Origin: Candidatus Nanopelagicales bacterium
GTDB lineage: Bacteria; Actinomycetota; Actinomycetes; S36-B12
Assembly (NCBI GenBank): GCA_030827125.1
Contig: JAURFD010000002.1
Coordinates: 186,001-250,000 of the forward strand
Reading direction: 5' to 3'
Length of the DNA: 64,000 nucleotides
The notes under the pieces were generated by a model. The model was given only the letters and a program-made list of their open reading frames with translations, did no database searches and had not been told where the DNA came from. Made by a program: the position numbers and the translations under genes. Below, piece after piece: positions 2,949 to 58,797 of the stretch (positions within the stretch are counted from its first letter, which is position 1; each line of letters begins with the position of its first letter).

Positions 2949-5798
2949 ATGACAGCATTCCGCGATCGCCACATTGGTCCACGCGAGGCCGACATCCGAC
3001 GAATGCTCGACATTCTTGGCTACGCGGACATGGAAGCCTTCCTCTCCGACGTGGTGCCCCAGCACATCCGCGAGTGGGATGGACTGGACCTGCCACCGGC
3101 ATTGACCGAGACGCAGGCCCTGGATCGTCTCCGTGAGTTGGCTGAGCGCAACGAACCGATGCGGCAAATGATCGGTCTGGGTTATGCGAACTCGGAGACG
3201 CCGGCGGTCATTCGTCGAAATGTGCTTGAGAATCCTGCCTGGTACACCGCCTACACGCCGTATCAGCCGGAGATTTCCCAGGGACGCCTCGAGGCCCTCC
3301 TCGCCTTCCAAACCATGATCGAGGATCTCAGCGGACTACCCGTGGCATCGGCGTCACTTTTGGACGAGGCCACGGCTGCGGCGGAGGCCATGACGCTATT
3401 GAAGCGCTCCGGCAGGGTTCCCGGTTCGGTGTTCCTCGTCGATCAGGACACTCACCCACAAACGGTGGCCGTGCTGCAGACACGCGCACGCCCGTCGGGC
3501 CTCACAATTCGCCTCGTCGATGTCACCAACATCGCGACTGCGAATCCGTCCGATGCCTTCGGGATTCTCATCTCCTACCCAGGATCGTCCGGGGCCATCG
3601 CAGATCCCGGACCGGCCATCGCCTGGGCGCATGATGCCGGCCTTGGTGTCGCCGTCACCACGGATCTGCTTGCACTCACGGTGCTGACACCCCCCGGGGA
3701 ACTCGGTGCCGATGTCTGCGTGGGTTCGGCCGGTCGTTTCGGCGTACCCCTGGGATTCGGCGGTCCTCATGCGGGCTTCATGAGCGTGCGAGCCGGCCTG
3801 GAACGCTCCCTACCGGGTCGCCTCGTGGGCGTCTCCCTGGATGCCGAAGGCACGCCCGCCTACCGACTGGCACTGCAAACACGCGAGCAACACATTCGCC
3901 GCGAGAAGGCCACCAGCAACATCTGCACCGCGCAGGTACTCCTGGCCGTCATCTCCGCCATGTACGCCGCCTACCACGGCCCCGACGGTCTGAGGGCCAT
4001 CGCCGAGCGCACCCATGAGCGCGCTGCTGCGATTGCCGAAGCGTTGACGCTCGGGGGCGTGGAGGTGCTGCACGATGAGTTCTTCGACACCGTGCTGGCA
4101 CGTGTACCCGGTCGAGCTGACGAGGTCGTGGCCTTCGCCCGTGACGCGGGCATCAACCTGCGGCGTGTCGATGAGGACACGGTCGGCGTGAGCGTGGACG
4201 AAACAACATCAGAACAGGACGTCGTCGATGTCGTCACCGCGTTCGGGGTTGCGCCCAAAGCTCACTCCGATCGGTCCCACCTACCGGTGAACCTGCTGCG
4301 CACCAGCCCCTACCTGGCCCACCCGATCTTCCACGACTATCGCAGCGAGACCGAGATGCTGCGCTATCTGCGCAAACTGGCTGATCGAGATCTCGCCCTC
4401 GACCGGACGATGATTCCGCTCGGCTCGTGCACGATGAAACTCAACGCCACCGCGGAGATGGAGCCCATCACCTGGCCGGGTTTCGCGGGGATTCATCCCT
4501 TCGCGCCGCTCGACCAGGCGGAGGGTTACCGACAGCTCATTCGCGAACTCGAAGCGCAACTGTGTGAGGTGACGGGCTATGACGCCGTCTCGCTCCAGCC
4601 CAACGCGGGCAGCCAGGGTGAGTTTGCCGGACTGCTCGCTATCCGGTCCTACCTGGATGCGCAGGGTCAGGGGGATCGCGATATCTGCCTGATCCCGAGC
4701 AGTGCTCACGGGACCAACGCGGCCAGCGCCATCATGGCCGGAATGCGCGTCGTCGTCGTCACCTGTGATGACGACGGCAATGTGGATCTTGATGATGTGC
4801 GCGCCAAGATCGCGGAGCACGGCGACCGGCTCGCGGCTCTCATGGTGACCTATCCCTCGACCCATGGCGTCTTCGAAGAGGACATCGTCGACCTGTGTGC
4901 ATTGGTGCACGACGCCGGCGGTCAGGTCTATGTTGACGGGGCGAACCTCAACGCTCTCGTGGGCCTGGCGAAGCCCGGCAAGTTCGGCGCCGACGTCTCT
5001 CACCTCAATCTGCACAAGACCTTCTGCATTCCCCACGGAGGCGGTGGCCCGGGAGTCGGCCCTGTCGGGGTGCGAGAGCATCTGGCGCCCTACCTACCCG
5101 GCCACCCGTTGCGCCCGGAAGCAGGCCCGCTGGGCCGCGGTGATGAGGACGGGGGAGTGGGGTCGGTGAGCGCGGCACCGTGGGGCTCTGCGGGCATCCT
5201 GCCGATTCCCTACGCCTACATCACCATGATGGGTGCCGACGGGCTGCGGGAGGCGACCTCCGTCGCGATCTTGTCGGCCAACTACGTTGCGCTCCGGCTG
5301 TCGGCTGCCTACCCGATCCTGTACACCGGCGCGCACGATCGCGTGGCCCACGAGTGCATCATCGACCTTCGGCCGCTGACGAAGGAGACCGGTGTGACCG
5401 TCGACGACGTGGCGAAGCGGCTTATCGACTACGGCTTCCACGCGCCAACGATGTCCTTCCCGGTCGCAGGCACCTTGATGATCGAGCCCACCGAGAGTGA
5501 GAGCGTCGCCGAACTCGATCGCTTCTGCGATGCGCTGCTGGCGATCCGGGCAGAAATCGACAAGGTGGCCTCGGGGGAGTGGTCGGTCGAGGACAACCCG
5601 TTGCGCAATGCGCCGCACACGGCCGAGTGCCTCATGGATGACTGGGACCACCCCTATTCGCGTCGTGAGGCGGCTTACCCGATGGAGCAGCGAGGCCACA
5701 ACAAGTACTGGCCGCCGGTCCGTCGCATCGATGGTGCCTATGGGGATCGCAACCTGGTGTGCGCCTGTCCGCGTCCGGAGGAACTCGCGACGACGTAG
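2949..5798 (+). CDS. gcvP: Glycine dehydrogenase (decarboxylating), P protein
   Basis: 949 residues, the normal length of the single-chain P protein. It decarboxylates glycine with pyridoxal phosphate and passes the methylamine to lipoyl-GcvH. The N-terminal half carries [17 protein letters not shown] and [12 protein letters not shown]. The C-terminal half carries the PLP site [18 protein letters not shown] with lysine about residue 690. It ends with the [17 protein letters not shown] tail. The ATG start has a good GAGGAG box 5 bases upstream. Expression is governed by the tandem glycine riboswitch upstream. gcvT is not in this window. Confidence 0.98.
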
Positions 5799-5842: not shown

Positions 5843-7435
5843 ATGGAACTCCTCGAGGGCGTCTTCGCGACGACGATCCTGGCCGTCGTGGTGGCCGGGA
5901 TCGCCCGCTGGCGCGGCTGGGGGATCGCGCTGCCGGTGCTCGTCGCCGGAATCATCGTGGGTTTCTTACCGTTTGGACCCCGGGCTCCAGATGATGGTGG
6001 GGACGTCTTCCTGCTGGTCCTGGCTCCACTGGTTTTTGGTGAGGCGCTGTCATCTTCGTTCGTTGACTTCCGCCGCCTTCGACGTCCGATCCTGGCGCTC
6101 GCGATCGGCTTGGTGGTGATGTCCTCACTCGCCGTCGGTGCTGTGGCTGCGCAACTGGTGCCGGGGCTGCCGCTGGCCATGGCGTTCGCCCTCGGCGCGA
6201 TCTTGTCGCCAACTGATGCCGTCGCCGTGGCGTCGATCGCCAAGCGCGTGAGTCTGCCTCGACGGGTCGTCACCATCCTCGAGGGGGAGAGCCTCGTCAA
6301 CGACGGCACGGGTCTTACCCTGCTGCGTGTGGCCCTGGCGGTGGCCGCCGCCGGGGCGCTCACCGCGCAGGAGGTTCTCACCGTTCTCGCTCAGTCCGTT
6401 CTCGGTGGCATTGCCGTCGGAGCGCTCGTGGGCATCATCTTGGCCCTGGTCATCCGTCGCGGATCCGATGATCTCCTCGCCAATGCCCTCATCCTCATCG
6501 CGCCATTTCCCGCGTACCTCGGTGCCGAGGCCATTGGCGGCTCGGGAATTCTCGCCGTTGTGACGGCCGCACTCATCGTGACGAACACCATGCTCACCGA
6601 CCGCGACTTCCGCGGCCGGCGCGCGTCTGTCGCGGTCTGGAAGCAGATCACCTTCATCCTCACGGCTCTGGCGTTCTTCTTGGTCGGTCTGGAGCTTCCC
6701 GCCACGATTGAGGAGTTGCCGGCGGAGGAACTGCGCCTGCTGCCTCTCCTCGTCATCGCCGTGCTCGTGACTTTGCTGGTCGCGCGGCTTGTTTTCGTCC
6801 TTCTTATGGCCTTGATTACCCGTCGCGACGCGCGTCGCCGCATTGGCTTGCGCGAAGCGGTCGTGCTCGCGTGGGCCGGGACCAGGGGACCGGTGTCGGG
6901 CCTGGCCGCGTTCTCCCTGCCCCTCGGGGTCGGGGTCGAGGCCCTCGTGGACCAGAGCCAGCTGCTTCAGGCAACAACGTTCCTGGTCATTGCCCTCACG
7001 CTGCTGCTGTCACCGACCCTGGGTCTGGTCGCCCGAGCCGTCAGACTGCGGGCCGACGATGATGGCGATACCGGTGCGGAGCTGCGGGCGGCGCTTGCGG
7101 CCCGTGGCCTTGCCGCACTCGATGATGCGCTGCAGGAGGCCTCCTTGGAGCGCAGGCCGCTCTCCGCAGAGGCGGAGGCGATCGTGCGTTCCCGCCTCAC
7201 CATAGATCTGCGTTCGGCCGAGGATAAGACAGGGGAGTTGCCCGTGGTGGCCGATGGCACCACCACCGTGCACGATGTCTGGGCGCTGGAGCGGATCGTT
7301 CTCAACGCCCAGCACGACGAGTTGCTGGTCCTGCGTGACTCGGGTTGGCCCGACGCGATCCTCCGCCCCGCCATGCATGAGATCGATCTCCAGCGATCCG
7401 CGCTTCGGGCACGCAACCCGCGTGCCACGGACTAG
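5843..7435 (+). CDS. CPA1-family sodium/proton antiporter (NhaP type)
   Basis: 530 residues. The N-terminal 400 residues form about 12 hydrophobic segments with the cation-binding signature of monovalent cation/proton antiporters (GAILSPTDAVAVASIAKR, with the TD pair) and EGESLVNDGTGL. The last 130 residues are a charged cytoplasmic tail with no recognisable domain, typical for this group. It should exchange Na+ (or K+) for protons at the membrane. The ATG start at 5843 is 44 bases after gcvP. It converges with the HAD gene 20 bases downstream. Ion specificity cannot be read from sequence. Confidence 0.88.
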   Translation: MELLEGVFATTILAVVVAGIARWRGWGIALPVLVAGIIVGFLPFGPRAPDDGGDVFLLVLAPLVFGEALSSSFVDFRRLRRPILALAIGLVVMSSLAVGAVAAQLVPGLPLAMAFALGAILSPTDAVAVASIAKRVSLPRRVVTILEGESLVNDGTGLTLLRVALAVAAAGALTAQEVLTVLAQSVLGGIAVGALVGIILALVIRRGSDDLLANALILIAPFPAYLGAEAIGGSGILAVVTAALIVTNTMLTDRDFRGRRASVAVWKQITFILTALAFFLVGLELPATIEELPAEELRLLPLLVIAVLVTLLVARLVFVLLMALITRRDARRRIGLREAVVLAWAGTRGPVSGLAAFSLPLGVGVEALVDQSQLLQATTFLVIALTLLLSPTLGLVARAVRLRADDDGDTGAELRAALAARGLAALDDALQEASLERRPLSAEAEAIVRSRLTIDLRSAEDKTGELPVVADGTTTVHDVWALERIVLNAQHDELLVLRDSGWPDAILRPAMHEIDLQRSALRARNPRATD

Positions 7436-7455: not shown

Positions 7456-7950
7456 TCAGGTGCGGCCGAGGCGGTCCTGCGCCTCGATAAGCCCGGCGTT
7501 GCGTGGCTGTGTCCACTCCGGAACCGTGGCAGGAAATCCCGCAGCCTGGACAGCGTCCACAACCGCCGCGTCGTCATCCCATAGATTCACCACGGTGTGA
7601 GATTGAGCGAGGTCGAGCACGACCTGCAGCTTGAAATCCGGGGCCGGTCGCCAATCGCGATGCGGGCGCATTATCAGGCAGTCCGGGGCGACGGGTAGTT
7701 CGTGTTGGGCGAGCCAGGACTCGGTCACCCGGCGCAGACGCTCGGGGCGGCCGGTGAGGTAGACGATCCGGTTGCCGTCGGCATCAGCCTGACGGACCGC
7801 GTCGGCGCCAGCCTCCAAGACCGGGTCGTGGCCGGCCGCGCCGAAGAAGGCGTCCCAGTCGCGCCGAGGACCGGCCAGATGGTGCTGTCGATGCGTGACG
7901 TCGGCGATGACCCCGTCAATGTCGACGATCAACAGCGGGCGCTCAGTCAT
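7456..7950 (-). CDS. HAD-superfamily phosphatase resembling the PNK 3'-phosphatase domain
   Basis: 164 residues. It opens with the HAD motif I LLIVDIDGVIADVTHRQHH and has motif II as YLTGRPERLRRVTESWL. The layout (DIDG, HRQHHL, TGR-xE, NLWDDD) resembles the phosphatase half of bacteriophage/bacterial polynucleotide kinase and related 'polynucleotide kinase-like' stand-alone HAD proteins. No kinase P-loop is present. The substrate is unknown; a nucleic acid 3'-phosphate or a nucleotide is possible. It stands alone, transcribed away from the repeat region at 8.0 kb. Confidence 0.7.
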   Translation of the reverse strand: MTERPLLIVDIDGVIADVTHRQHHLAGPRRDWDAFFGAAGHDPVLEAGADAVRQADADGNRIVYLTGRPERLRRVTESWLAQHELPVAPDCLIMRPHRDWRPAPDFKLQVVLDLAQSHTVVNLWDDDAAVVDAVQAAGFPATVPEWTQPRNAGLIEAQDRLGRT

Positions 7951-8000
7951 GCCGCCATCGTGGCATGGTCGGCGCGGGCGGGGAGGGGCGCACCCTTCGT

Positions 8001-8057
8001 TGACTGGCGGGTTGTGGACGGTTTAGCGGGCACAAAACGTCCACAACCCGCCAGTCA
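8001..8057. repeat. Long perfect inverted repeat (REP-like hairpin)
   Basis: TGACTGGCGGGTTGTGGACG (8001-8020) is exactly complementary to 8038-8057, and three more T-A pairs extend the stem after one mismatch, leaving a 9-base loop (8025-8033). It lies between two minus-strand genes. No transposase is nearby. Its size and symmetry suit a dispersed palindromic element or a strong bidirectional hairpin; there is no T-tract. Confidence 0.85.
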
Positions 8058-8067
8058 CGTGAGAGTG

Positions 8068-8095
8068 AAATGACATAATGTCCGTTATCGGATGT
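8068..8095 (-). other. dif-like XerC/XerD recombination site
   Basis: On the minus strand the 28 bases read as an 11-base XerC-type arm ACATCCGATAA, a 6-base spacer CGGACA and an 11-base XerD-type arm TTATGTCATTT. The CCGATAA and TTATGTCA cores agree with what I recall of the actinobacterial dif consensus. It lies 11 bases from the long hairpin. It may be the chromosome dif site or a dif-like site carried by a repeat element. Confidence 0.5.
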
Positions 8096-8192: not shown

Positions 8193-9617
8193 CTAAGCGC
8201 GCAGCTCGTCTGCGAGTTCGGCGAAGTGGCCCACGAGCAGGTCCATATCGGCCGGCGTGTGCGCAAGCGAGACCAACCACTGCTCGTCGAGTCCGGGTGG
8301 CGTAAGGACGCCACGGTTGACGCCCCACAGCCAACTGAGTTCGGCGATGCCGAAGTCGGTGCGCTTGTAGTCGCGGTAGTTGCGCACCGGTGCCGGTGAC
8401 CAGGTGATCGCACCCTTGACGCCGAAGCCCACGGTGTGGGCAGGCAGCTCATGACGCGCGATGATGTCATCGGCCGCGGCCAGCGCACCATCGTTGACCG
8501 CTTCTGCCATAGCCAGCGCCTCCACGGTGCACACCTCGTCGACCGCGGCCGCGGCGGCCATGACCAGCGGGTTGCCGTTGTAGGTGCCGAAGTGCGGCAT
8601 GCGCCAATCGGAGATCGTGTCCATGACCTCCTTGCGCCCGCCGAAGGCCGCGAGAGGAAGCCCGCCACCGATGCTCTTGGCCAGCGAGACAAGATCGGGC
8701 GTGACCCCGAGGCGCTGCGCGGCACCGGCGTAGCCGGCGGTCAAACCGGTCTTGACCTCATCGAAGACCAGCAGGACGCCGTGCTCGTCGCACAGCGCCC
8801 GGACACCCGCGAGGTAGCCCTCGTCCGGCACGACGATGCCGATGTTCTCCAACACCGGCTCCATGACGACCGCGGCGATCTCCTTGCCGTGATCGGCGAG
8901 GATCTCTCCCAGGCGGTTCAGGTTGTTGTAGGGGACGACGTAGACGGTCCCGGGCTCCACCTCGAACGGCGTCACCGGGATTGGCGCGTCCTCCGGACCG
9001 GCCTCGGCGACCTCGGGCTTCACCGAGACCGACAGGCCGTCGTATCCCCCGTGATATCCACCCTCGATCTTGATGATCGCTTTGCGTCCGGTGTACGCGC
9101 GGGCTGCGCGAACGGCGTACATGTCGGCCTCGGTCCCGGAGTTGGCAAAGCGCACCTGGTCCAGTCCGAAGCGTCGCTGGAAGCGCTCCGCCACCTCAGT
9201 GGCCGACGGAGACGGCGTGACAAAGAGCGTGCCGCGCTGCAGCACCTCCATGACAGCGGCAACGACCTCGGGGTTCAGGTGACCCACGAGCATCGCCCCG
9301 AAGCCCATCGACAGATCCAGAAGTTGACGGCCGTCCACATCGGTGAGCCAGGCGCCCTTGGCCGACTCGATCGCGATCGGGTACGGGTCCCAGTACTGGA
9401 ACGACGAGGGCACTCCCAGCGGGAGCGGATTGAGCGCTCGCTGATGATGCGCCGCCGACCCAGGAGTCTGCGCAGTGAAACGTTCCCACTCGGCGGCGAG
9501 GAGACTTTGGACGCGGCCCTCGTCCAGCGGGGTGAACTCTGTCGGCAGATGCCGCCAGGTGGCCGGATCGTGATCCGGCCAGGTGATCGTGTTGGGGGTC
9601 GCGCTTTGGATGGTCAT
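8193..9617 (-). CDS. Class III aminotransferase, HemL-like (glutamate-1-semialdehyde aminomutase family)
   Basis: 474 residues from ATG 9617, preceded by GGGGAGG. A PLP-dependent fold-type I enzyme: QVRFANSGTEADMYAVRAAR, LVFDEVKTG and the PLP lysine in LVSLAKSIGGGLP (about K314), then MPHFGTYNGNPL. These match glutamate-1-semialdehyde 2,1-aminomutase-like proteins. It has an N-terminal extension of roughly 60 residues compared with canonical HemL, and no other haem genes are adjacent, so a different amino substrate is possible. It stands as a single gene, divergent from the glycerophosphodiesterase. Confidence 0.75.
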   Translation of the reverse strand: MTIQSATPNTITWPDHDPATWRHLPTEFTPLDEGRVQSLLAAEWERFTAQTPGSAAHHQRALNPLPLGVPSSFQYWDPYPIAIESAKGAWLTDVDGRQLLDLSMGFGAMLVGHLNPEVVAAVMEVLQRGTLFVTPSPSATEVAERFQRRFGLDQVRFANSGTEADMYAVRAARAYTGRKAIIKIEGGYHGGYDGLSVSVKPEVAEAGPEDAPIPVTPFEVEPGTVYVVPYNNLNRLGEILADHGKEIAAVVMEPVLENIGIVVPDEGYLAGVRALCDEHGVLLVFDEVKTGLTAGYAGAAQRLGVTPDLVSLAKSIGGGLPLAAFGGRKEVMDTISDWRMPHFGTYNGNPLVMAAAAAVDEVCTVEALAMAEAVNDGALAAADDIIARHELPAHTVGFGVKGAITWSPAPVRNYRDYKRTDFGIAELSWLWGVNRGVLTPPGLDEQWLVSLAHTPADMDLLVGHFAELADELRA

Positions 9618-9669
9618 ATCGCCTCCCCGGCGTGTTGGGACCCTTGGCGTGATCCTAGACAATCAACCC

Positions 9670-10482
9670 ATGACTGCAGGCCCCGACTGGCCAGACGACC
9701 CCCTTCGTGTGTCTTCCCCTGGGTCGCCGCACACCTTTCGCGCCTATGCGCACCGGGGCGGGGCCGCCGAAAACCCCGAGAACTCCCCCGCCGCCTTCGC
9801 CCACGCCGTAGCCCTCGGCTACACCCACCTCGAGACCGATATCCGCCCCAGCCGCGACGGCGTGGCGGTCCTGCACCACGATTCCCGCCTCGATCGCACC
9901 ACCGACGGCACCGGCCCCGTGCGCGGTCAGACGTGGGCCAACCTCTCCATCCTCCGGTTATCGGACGGATCGGCTCTCCTGCGCCTCGAGGAGCTCTTGG
10001 AGTCGCACCCACACACCTTCATCAATGTCGACGTCAAGGAGCCCGGATCCGTCCCGGCCACCGTGGCTGCCATAGCCCGCTGCCGCGCGTGGAGCCGTGT
10101 GTGTCTCACGTCGTTCTCCGGACGTCGCCTCGCCCGAGCACGACGCTTGGCATCCCCCGGCACTGAGAGTGCCGCCCATCCGGGTGAGGTGCTGGCGCTG
10201 CGCGCGGCGCTGCCCTGGCCACGTCGACCCATGCGCCTCCAGGTCCCTCCCACACTCCTGGGCCGACGCCTCATCGACGCAGAGTTCATCGAGCGGGCCC
10301 ACGCTCGTGGGTACGCCGTCGACGTGTGGACCATTGATGACCGCACGAAGATGGAGGCTCTCATCGACGCCGGAGTCGACGGCATCATGACCGACCGTCC
10401 CACCCTCCTGCGCGAGGTCCTGCTGGTGCGAGGACGCTGGCCCGAATCACCGGATACACCGGATTCGAACACCTGTTCCTAA
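9670..10482 (+). CDS. Glycerophosphodiester phosphodiesterase
   Basis: 270 residues. It cleaves glycerophosphodiesters to glycerol-3-phosphate and an alcohol. It has the GDPD TIM-barrel signatures AHRGGAAENPENSPAAF, HLETDIRPSRDG and VLHHDSRLDRTTDG, then INVDVKEP and VDVWTIDD near the end. There is no signal peptide from the ATG chosen, so it appears cytoplasmic. In-frame sequence before 9670 overlaps the divergent aminotransferase start and is not needed. It precedes rbpA, an order I recall from Streptomyces. Confidence 0.88.
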   Translation: MTAGPDWPDDPLRVSSPGSPHTFRAYAHRGGAAENPENSPAAFAHAVALGYTHLETDIRPSRDGVAVLHHDSRLDRTTDGTGPVRGQTWANLSILRLSDGSALLRLEELLESHPHTFINVDVKEPGSVPATVAAIARCRAWSRVCLTSFSGRRLARARRLASPGTESAAHPGEVLALRAALPWPRRPMRLQVPPTLLGRRLIDAEFIERAHARGYAVDVWTIDDRTKMEALIDAGVDGIMTDRPTLLREVLLVRGRWPESPDTPDSNTCS

Positions 10483-10528: not shown

Positions 10529-10615
10529 GATAGCCACAGGACCAACGTCCGGTCAGGCGCGGCATTGATCGTCCGATACCCGCCAACAGCACCGGGCGTC
10601 GAACAGGAGGTTGGC

Positions 10616-10960
10616 ATGTCTGAGGGTTCACTGCGCGGTTCGCGCCTCGGCACGTTGAGCTACGAGAACGACGATCGCGTCGTCCCTGCTGAGCGGCTGC
10701 TGGTCAGTTACGAGTGTCCACGCGGACACGCCACGACTGTCCCCTTCTCCGCCGACGCTGACGAGATTCCTGTCCTGTGGGAGTGCCGCTGCGGTGCGGA
10801 GGCACTGCGGGTCGACCATGAGCGGCCCGAGGACAAGCCCACCCGCCCCGCACGCACGCACTGGGACATGCTGCTCGAGCGCCGGACGATTCGGGATCTG
10901 GAGGAGCTCCTCGACGAGCGCCTCGCCCTGCTTCGCGCATCACAGCGCAAGAGCGCCTAA
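10616..10960 (+). CDS. rbpA: RNA polymerase-binding protein RbpA
   Basis: 114 residues, normal for the family. It binds RNA polymerase and the primary sigma factor and stabilises the open complex; it is restricted to actinobacteria. The RbpA core is visible as YECPRGHATTVPFSADAD, WECRCG and the sigma-interacting C-terminus (THWDMLLERRTIRDLEELLD). Cys/His residues of the core zinc-site region are present. The ATG has a textbook AGGAGG box 5 bases upstream (10605-10610). The gene is followed by the convergent fxsA. Confidence 0.97.
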   Translation: MSEGSLRGSRLGTLSYENDDRVVPAERLLVSYECPRGHATTVPFSADADEIPVLWECRCGAEALRVDHERPEDKPTRPARTHWDMLLERRTIRDLEELLDERLALLRASQRKSA

Positions 10961-11456: not shown

Positions 11457-12211
11457 GCCCTCGCCCAGCGTTGACGCAGGCGTCGTCCGCCGGTGCGAAG
11501 TTGCCTGGTGCGTTCGATTGCGCCCCACTCCCCCACTTTGGTGAGCGCTTCGATGACGATGCCGCGGTGCATCTTGGAGGATCCGATTTCGCGTTCCACG
11601 AATGTAATGGGCACCTCGACGACCGTGAACCCACGCTGAAGTGCCCGCCACAGCAGATCGATCTGGAAGCAGTAGCCGTTGGACGTCACCGTGTCGAGTT
11701 CTAGCGCGCGTAGGACATCGGCGCGGTACGCGCGAAAGCCTCCTGTGGCGTCACGGGTGGGGATCCCCAGCGCGATCCGCGTGTAGAGACTGCCGCCTCG
11801 GGACAGAACCTTGCGGCTCGTGGGCCAATTGACGACGGATCCACCCGGCACCCAGCGCGATCCCAGCGCGACGTCGGCACCGGCGTCCAGTGCTGATAGC
11901 AGGCGCGGCAGATCCTCGGGGCGGTGGGAACCGTCGGCGTCCATCTCCACGAGAACGTCGTATCCGCGGCTCAGACCCCACGCAAAACCCGCGAGGTAGG
12001 CCGCACCAAGTCCGGCCTTGCCGGGGCGGTGCAGGACCGCAATGTGATCGTCAGCCGCCGCCATCTCATCGGCGAGTGCCCCGGTGCCATCCGGGCTGTT
12101 GTCATCGGCCACGAGCACATGCGCGTCGGGCACCGCAGACCGCAGCCGTTGAACGATCCCCGGCAGGCTGCCGGACTCGTTGTAGGTGGGGATGATGACC
12201 AGGACGGACAT
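11453..12211 (-). CDS. Polyprenol monophosphomannose synthase (GT2)
   Basis: 252 residues, length of the Dpm1/Ppm1 catalytic domain. It transfers mannose from GDP-mannose to polyprenyl phosphate, giving the donor for lipoglycan and protein mannosylation. Motifs: [43 protein letters not shown] (DXD), [11 protein letters not shown], then [10 protein letters not shown] and [11 protein letters not shown]. There are no transmembrane segments. In M. tuberculosis this domain is fused to an Lnt-like domain; here lnt is a separate upstream gene on the same strand (52-base gap). Confidence 0.93.
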
Positions 12212-56893: not shown

Positions 56894-58797
56894 TGCTCAG
56901 CGGTGACGTCCGCCGTCGGGATCAACGCCGTCACCTCTTCGACGATCCGGCGGGTCACCTGTTGAGCCGTGAGTCCGGCATCCTCGAGAACGTGGGCTCT
57001 CGTGCCGTGCTCGGGGAACACGCGCGGAACGCCAAACGTCATGGTCGGCGTCACGACATCCACGTCCTCCATCGCCATCCGAACCGAGGAACCGATTCCT
57101 CCGGCGCGCGAGTTGTCCTCAAGCACCGCCACCAGGTTCGCGTCACGCGCGAGATCGATGAGTTCACCGGGCACGGGCAGAGGCCACCGAGGATCGACCA
57201 CGCGCGCAGGGATTCCCTGGGCGTGTAGCCCGGAGGCAACGTCAAGGGCCAACTGGGCAAACGCGCCGACTCCCACCAAAAGGACTGTGGGATCGTCCTC
57301 CTCGCGCAGCACGTCGACGATCCCCAACCGACGAACAGCCGGCAACTCCTCAACCACCGGCCCCTTCGGGAAACGGATCACCGTCGGTGCATCAGAAACG
57401 GCAACAGCCTCACCGAGGGCTTCGGTCAGATTCTTCGCGTCCCGCGGGGCGGCCAAGCGCAGTCCGGGGACAACGCCGAGGATGCTCATGTCCCACACGC
57501 CGTTGTGACTCGGTCCATCATCTCCCGTGACGCCGGCGCGGTCGAGGACAAAGGTCACACCCGCCTTGTGCAGAGCACAGTCCATGAGCACCTGGTCGAA
57601 CGCGCGGTTAAGGAACGTTGCGTAGACAGCGACCACGGGATGCAACCCAGCGAAGGCCATGCCCGCGGCGCTCGCTGCCGCATGCTGCTCAGCGATGCCG
57701 ACATCGAAGGTGCGTTCAGGGTAGGTGGACGCAAACGTGTCCAATCCCGTGGGACCCATCATCGCCGCGGTGATGGCGACGATGGACTCATCATCCGCTC
57801 CCAGCCGGACCATTTCCTCCGAGAACACATTCGTCCACGTCTGTGCTGACGCCCGCATCGGACGGCCAGTATCCGGATCAATGACGCCAATGCCGTGGAA
57901 ACGATCGGCCTCGTCTGTTTCTGCCGGCCGATAGCCGCGACCCTTCTCGGTAATGACATGCACGATGACGGGAGCGTCGAAAGCGCGGGCGCGGCTCAGG
58001 GCATGCTCCAGGGCGGAGACGTCGTGCCCATCGACCGGCCCGATGTATTTCAAACCGAGGTCTTCGAACATCCCCTGCGGGGCCACGATGTCCTTGATGC
58101 CCTTCTTCATGCCATGCAGGGCGTCATAGAACGGCGCTCCGAAAACCGGGGTGCGCTGGAGCGTCCGACGTCCCCACTCAAGGAAGCGCTCGTAGCCCTG
58201 CGTGGTACGCAAGGTGGACAGATGGTGGGCGAGCCCACCGATCGTCGGGGAGTAGGAGCGCTCGTTATCGTTCACCACGACAATGAGAGGGCGATCTGAA
58301 GCAGCAATCGTATTGAGGGCTTCCCATGCCATTCCTCCGGTGAGCGAGCCATCGCCGACGACTGCCACCACGTGGCGTCCCGATTCACCGCCCAACCGGC
58401 CGTTGAGCTCCCAGGCCTTAGCAATGCCATCGGCGTAGGACAGAGCCGTGGAGGCATGGGAGTTCTCGATGACGTCGTGTTCAGACTCGCTTCGGCTCGG
58501 GTAGCCCGAGAGGCCACCCCGTTGGCGAAGTCCCTCAAACTGCCCGGCTCGACCCGTGACCATCTTGTGTACGTAGGCCTGGTGCCCGGTATCCCAGACG
58601 ATGGCATCGCGGGGGGAGTCGAAGACCCGATGAAGTGCCAGAGTGAGCTCCACGACACCCAAATTGGGACCTAGGTGCCCACCGGTCCGTGATACCCGGT
58701 CGACGAGGAACCGGCGGACCTCCTCGGCCAGCGCGGGCAAGTCCTCCTCCGGGACAGCACGAAGGTCAGAGGGTGAATGGATTCCCTCAAGCAGCAC
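56890..58797 (-). CDS. dxs: 1-Deoxy-D-xylulose-5-phosphate synthase
   Basis: 635 residues from GTG 58797 (GGGAGG upstream); the 23-residue open prefix is not needed. Thiamine-diphosphate enzyme of the MEP isoprenoid pathway: [46 protein letters not shown] and [18 protein letters not shown]. It condenses pyruvate and glyceraldehyde-3-phosphate. All expected TPP-binding residues are in place. Confidence 0.97.

Follow-up and report, generated by a model that had tools for sequence, protein, structure and literature searches.

The resolution of chromosome dimers at dif sites is understood from the mechanism worked out in E. coli (PMC5357621). In actinobacteria, dif was predicted successfully in all 66 genomes searched, and the site of Frankia alni, to take one example, is CACGCCGATAATGCACATTATGTCAAGT (Kono et al. 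2011, PMC3025954). In Corynebacterium, the architecture-imparting octamers G(A/T/C)GGGGGA and (T/C)GGGGGAG have been used to locate a dif that has the actinobacterial consensus (PMC2830990, PMC3350403, after Hendrickson and Lawrence 2006); in C. aurimucosum these octamers number 856 on the leading and 61 on the lagging strands (PMC2830990). Here we compare with these systems a 28-bp site in a 64-kb stretch of DNA, referred to below as the window, and an oriented heptamer, GGGGGAG, that converges on it.

Results

The site occupies positions 8068-8095 of the window on the minus strand, where direct reading from 8095 to 8068 gives ACATCCGATAA CGGACA TTATGTCATTT; besides this reading, it was assigned from a pattern match, copy number and conservation in relatives and GTDB. 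Its two 11-bp arms, 6-bp centre and lineage core, 28 bp in all, have the layout of a dif site. By analogy with E. coli dif we take ACATCCGATAA (8085-8095, minus strand) to be the XerC-side arm and TTATGTCATTT (8068-8078, minus strand) to be the XerD-side arm. Among relatives, CCGATAA is kept in the former, with weakly conserved bases outside it, the TTATGTCA core is kept in the latter, and the most variable bases are those of the central region, CGGACA (8079-8084, minus strand). When the window was searched for the dif core CCGATAANNNNNATTATGTCA with up to 3 mismatches, a single match with 0 mismatches was obtained, against a mean of 0.04 matches in dinucleotide shuffles. An earlier note on this DNA had described a 28-base, 11 + 6 + 11 dif-like site on the minus strand; its sequence was exact and the match is far above chance.

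In the whole assembly, a draft of 2.6 Mb in 82 contigs that is 97.2% complete and to which this count applies, CCGATAANNNNNATTATGTCA has 1 exact match, as expected of a site present in one copy per chromosome; the runner-up has 3 mismatches, and a reversed control pattern of the core gave 0 matches. The note had asked for the copies to be counted and had held out the alternative of a dispersed element with many dif-like copies. With its single copy the site is therefore not a dispersed element, although sequence missing from the draft might contain a second one.

The dif core is present at ≤1 mismatch in 55 of the 59 genomes of the order, this one included, and is single copy in 53; pattern matches with 2 mismatches in relatives (for example G018 and G019) look like chance and were left out of this count. 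It also occurs in at least 119 GTDB contigs, nearly all of them actinobacterial by record title. CCGATAA and ATTATGTCA were fixed by the query pattern in the GTDB scan, so that their conservation there is preset; at the pattern-free positions of the matches listed, most information lies at centre positions 7, 10 and 11 and at the right-arm T at 23, and among the same listed matches conservation drops to background a few bases beyond the 28 bp. The present site is slightly atypical at the pattern-free positions: its score outside the core is 3.2 bits, whereas the others among the matches listed average 10.1 (sd 5.3). The score still exceeds the 99th percentile for random sequence (1.8). The dif profile search that the note had proposed returned identical or near-identical cores in relatives and GTDB, and the note's statement that the cores fit the actinobacterial pattern agrees with these genomes and with the dif of Frankia alni.

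The site is intergenic, between a minus-strand ORF at 7456-7950 (HAD family, PF25109) and another at 8193-9662 that encodes a glutamate-1-semialdehyde-like aminotransferase; these are the two ordinary genes between which it had been placed. In six congeners (G003, G004, G006, G007, G008 and G009) dif directly adjoins the same aminotransferase gene and has gcvP, and mostly also nhaP and the HAD gene, on its other side. G005 and G010 lack the aminotransferase but keep the remaining neighbours, and gcvP is still near dif in other genera. The window also contains rbpA (10565-10960, PF13397), which we take to be an actinobacterial gene.

On its contig, C22, dif lies at 194068-194095 (194.07 kb). 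The cumulative GC-skew maximum is at 189229, 4.8 kb from dif, and a one-step change-point at 189 kb has a bootstrap interval (178-198 kb) that contains dif. The site thus coincides with the shift in GC skew close to the terminus, as the skew plot suggested in the note was meant to check. The gene-strand change that the note had seen, from mostly plus to mostly minus, is weakly right: a crude ORF count on C22 gives 100 plus and 50 minus before dif, and 34 plus and 40 minus after it. The dnaA gene is on a different contig from dif.

The genome contains exactly two PF00589 tyrosine recombinase genes, one following a dprA-like gene and the other flanked by a NUDIX gene and a parA-like gene; from these gene neighbourhoods we presume the gene beside dprA to be XerC and the gene beside parA to be XerD. 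There is one FtsK gamma domain (FtsK_gamma) in the genome, which completes the set of XerC, XerD and FtsK that a dif system requires.

A motif scan of the window for GGGGGAG, a KOPS-like word, found plus-strand copies directed at dif at 570-576, 5151-5157, 5573-5579 and 6283-6289, the last of these being the final copy before the switch. Minus-strand copies directed at dif follow at 9783-9789, the first after the switch, at 11528-11534, and at 15 further places within 18992-53652 (starts 18992, 21182, 22349, 23833, 24625, 25055, 26092, 30446, 32091, 37489, 40036, 44307, 44642, 50875 and 53646). The only copy pointing away is on the plus strand at 58612-58618, so that 21 of 22 are oriented towards dif. 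It is this orientation that is informative in the window, the abundance itself not being raised (22 copies versus 18 expected).

Along C22, 78 of the 81 copies point at dif (left arm 52 plus and 1 minus, right arm 2 plus and 26 minus), and the polarity flips between 192282 and 195782, a 3.5-kb interval containing dif. An order-3 Markov model with the same leading strands predicts 29:15 where 78:3 is observed. GGGGGAG is alone in reaching 96% polarity among the 2683 heptamers that occur 40 times or more; the next most polar are TGGGGGA (89%) and CACCTAC (86%), the polarity of other G-rich words is far lower (for example GGGGGCG 55:28, GGGGGTG 26:23), and the most strand-polar octamer on C22 is CGGGGGAG (39:1). 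As for a rise in abundance towards dif, which a KOPS should show, 18 copies of GGGGGAG lie less than 20 kb from dif and 3-5 per 20 kb at distances over 100 kb, but bins past about 92 kb cover one arm only. Other large contigs mostly have one polarity each (C11 72:5, C54 43:2, C44 8:23), with a density on C44 half that of C22. We also tried established guide words: the E. coli KOPS GGGNAGGG is weakly polar on C22 (28 towards and 20 away from dif), and neither B. subtilis GAGAAGGG nor L. lactis GAAGAAG has a clear polarity. GGGGGAG polarity tests for dif more sharply than GC skew does, and dif stands at the switch of both, in line with the terminus that the note had expected here if the site is the chromosomal dif.

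GGGGGAG also switches at dif in eight relatives spanning the genus, family and order (G003, G006, G014, G035, G011, G038, G036 and G020), of which G003, G035 and G038 have a weak or one-sided local GC skew. At the 119 GTDB loci, among the matches listed, 419 of 425 copies aim at dif and 6 away; if the switch is placed 500 bp away, the misoriented copies rise from these 6 to 16-19, and if 1 kb away, to 44-60. The orientation is much the same whichever strand a gene is on, at 103:6 for leading-strand genes and 87:5 for lagging-strand genes. The site is where oriented copies of this probable guide motif converge, and GGGGGAG has the strong leading-strand bias and the polarity switch at dif that characterize a KOPS. 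The word also points at dif in L051 (3:0), L080 (9:0) and L086 (3:0), whose record titles are non-actinobacterial (Thermoanaerobaculia, Acidobacteria and Geobacter); these are either binning errors or a sign that the guide word is shared beyond Actinomycetota.

At 7999-8059 of the window, less than 10 bp from dif, there is a near-perfect palindrome of 61 bp whose loop is variable. It has at least 21 dispersed copies in the genome (G000; 20 other places, L294-L311), mostly just past gene ends. Of its 19 pairs, 4 show paired changes, and the arm positions that vary most recur every sixth base (6, 12 and 18). We rejected it as a part of dif because 20 copies lie far from dif, the congener G004 has none next to its dif, and none was found in the 39 other genomes searched. 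Rfam returned sub-threshold microRNA matches only, taken as chance. The palindrome may represent a family of terminators or a REP-like repeat confined to this species.

Elements associated with dif were seen in other genomes. In G036, a relative within the order, two dif copies 842 bp apart (C7:81472-82334; L313:2473-3335) enclose a Phd/YefM antitoxin gene and a ParE-family toxin gene (Pfam), so that the chromosomal dif of this relative holds a toxin-antitoxin module flanked by dif copies. In G045, dif is found on three contigs (C8:403, C54:16686 and C94:1787; L314-L316); the right flank is common to two of them and one left flank resembles, by eye, the N-terminal part of a tyrosine-integrase-like protein, which suggests an element integrated at dif. 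A common dif-like site, CCGATAATAAATATTATGTCAACTAGC, occurs in the IMG/VR viral contigs L207, L213, L221, L242 and L243 (also L162 and L167), directly after a small-subunit-like gene in contigs with terminase-like genes; L162 differs from the others in gene content. This site is perhaps an attachment site used via the host XerCD.

Discussion

Dif-like sites associated with such elements exist elsewhere, as in the pair around the G036 toxin-antitoxin genes, the extra copies of G045 and the site present in a phage group, and the locus described here might by the same token be the dif-like attachment site of an IMEX or phage. This is very improbable, since the genome has one dif copy, the genes to either side are ordinary, conserved ones whose order is shared with congeners, and no integrase lies beside the site, both PF00589 genes being XerC and XerD at other loci. 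By the assembly copy count and the congener neighbourhoods, there are no two dif copies flanking foreign DNA, as an IMEX would have. Short AT-rich motifs can also arise randomly in an intergenic region, but the likelihood of a chance resemblance is negligible: the low match rate of the shuffles, even with 3 mismatches, the conservation at the same locus in the genus and order, and the coincidence with the GC-skew and GGGGGAG switches are three independent coincidences, and it is because of these that this explanation is refuted.

GGGGGAG is G-rich, as are leading strands, and its polarity could in principle simply follow from replication-linked GC skew or from codon use and have nothing to do with guiding FtsK. 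We consider this unlikely, although less so than either alternative for the site itself, because the observed polarity far exceeds the order-3 Markov expectation, no other heptamer attains it and other G-rich words fall well short, the orientation does not depend on gene strand, and the word flips at dif in G003, G035 and G038 despite their weak local skew. The word that guides FtsK in this genome is most likely GGGGGAG, its reading by FtsK being proposed on the E. coli model; no experimental test of FtsK binding to this motif was found in the searchable literature. It is also probably the FtsK guide (KOPS) of Actinomycetota at large, distinct from the proteobacterial GGGNAGGG and alone able to mark dif within a few hundred bases even in weak-skew drafts.

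Positions 8068-8095 are almost certainly the chromosomal dif site of an actinobacterium, an ordinary member of a well-known kind, which bears out both the observation and the interpretation in the note. Sequence shows that the site exists in a single copy, that it is conserved, that it stands where skew and motif polarity reverse, and that XerC, XerD and FtsK are encoded in the genome. Binding, strand order, FtsK activation and the reading of GGGGGAG are modelled on the E. coli system. An odd number of crossovers would join sister chromosomes as a dimer. XerC would bind ACATCCGATAA and XerD TTATGTCATTT, and FtsK at the division septum would load on oriented guide sequences, most likely GGGGGAG, pump the DNA of both arms towards dif and switch XerD on, after which XerCD would recombine the two dif copies inside the 6-bp centre to give two monomers. 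The site fixes the replication terminus of the draft genome and orients its contigs. GGGGGAG polarity offers a simple, sharp confirmation of dif in actinobacterial drafts, where GC skew is often weak, and gives a word to try against actinobacterial FtsK.

The locus shares with the E. coli XerCD-dif-FtsK system (PMC5357621, PMC2680272) the dif layout, two recombinases, the FtsK gamma domain and a motif converging on dif, and differs from it in the guide word, the E. coli KOPS being weakly polar in this genome whereas GGGGGAG is strongly so. A close counterpart is the dif of Frankia alni (PMC3025954), with the same 11 + 6 + 11 layout, identical CCGATAA and ATTATGTCA, and likewise a single copy at the GC-skew shift; the two differ in the centre (CGGACA here, TGCACA in Frankia alni) and in the outer arm bases (ACAT...TTT versus CACG...AGT). 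The Corynebacterium octamers have the same G-rich core as GGGGGAG and the same leading-strand bias. As they are already published, what we see confirms an observation made before and takes it further, to other genera and, among the matches listed, to 119 loci, with a switch within a few hundred bases of dif.
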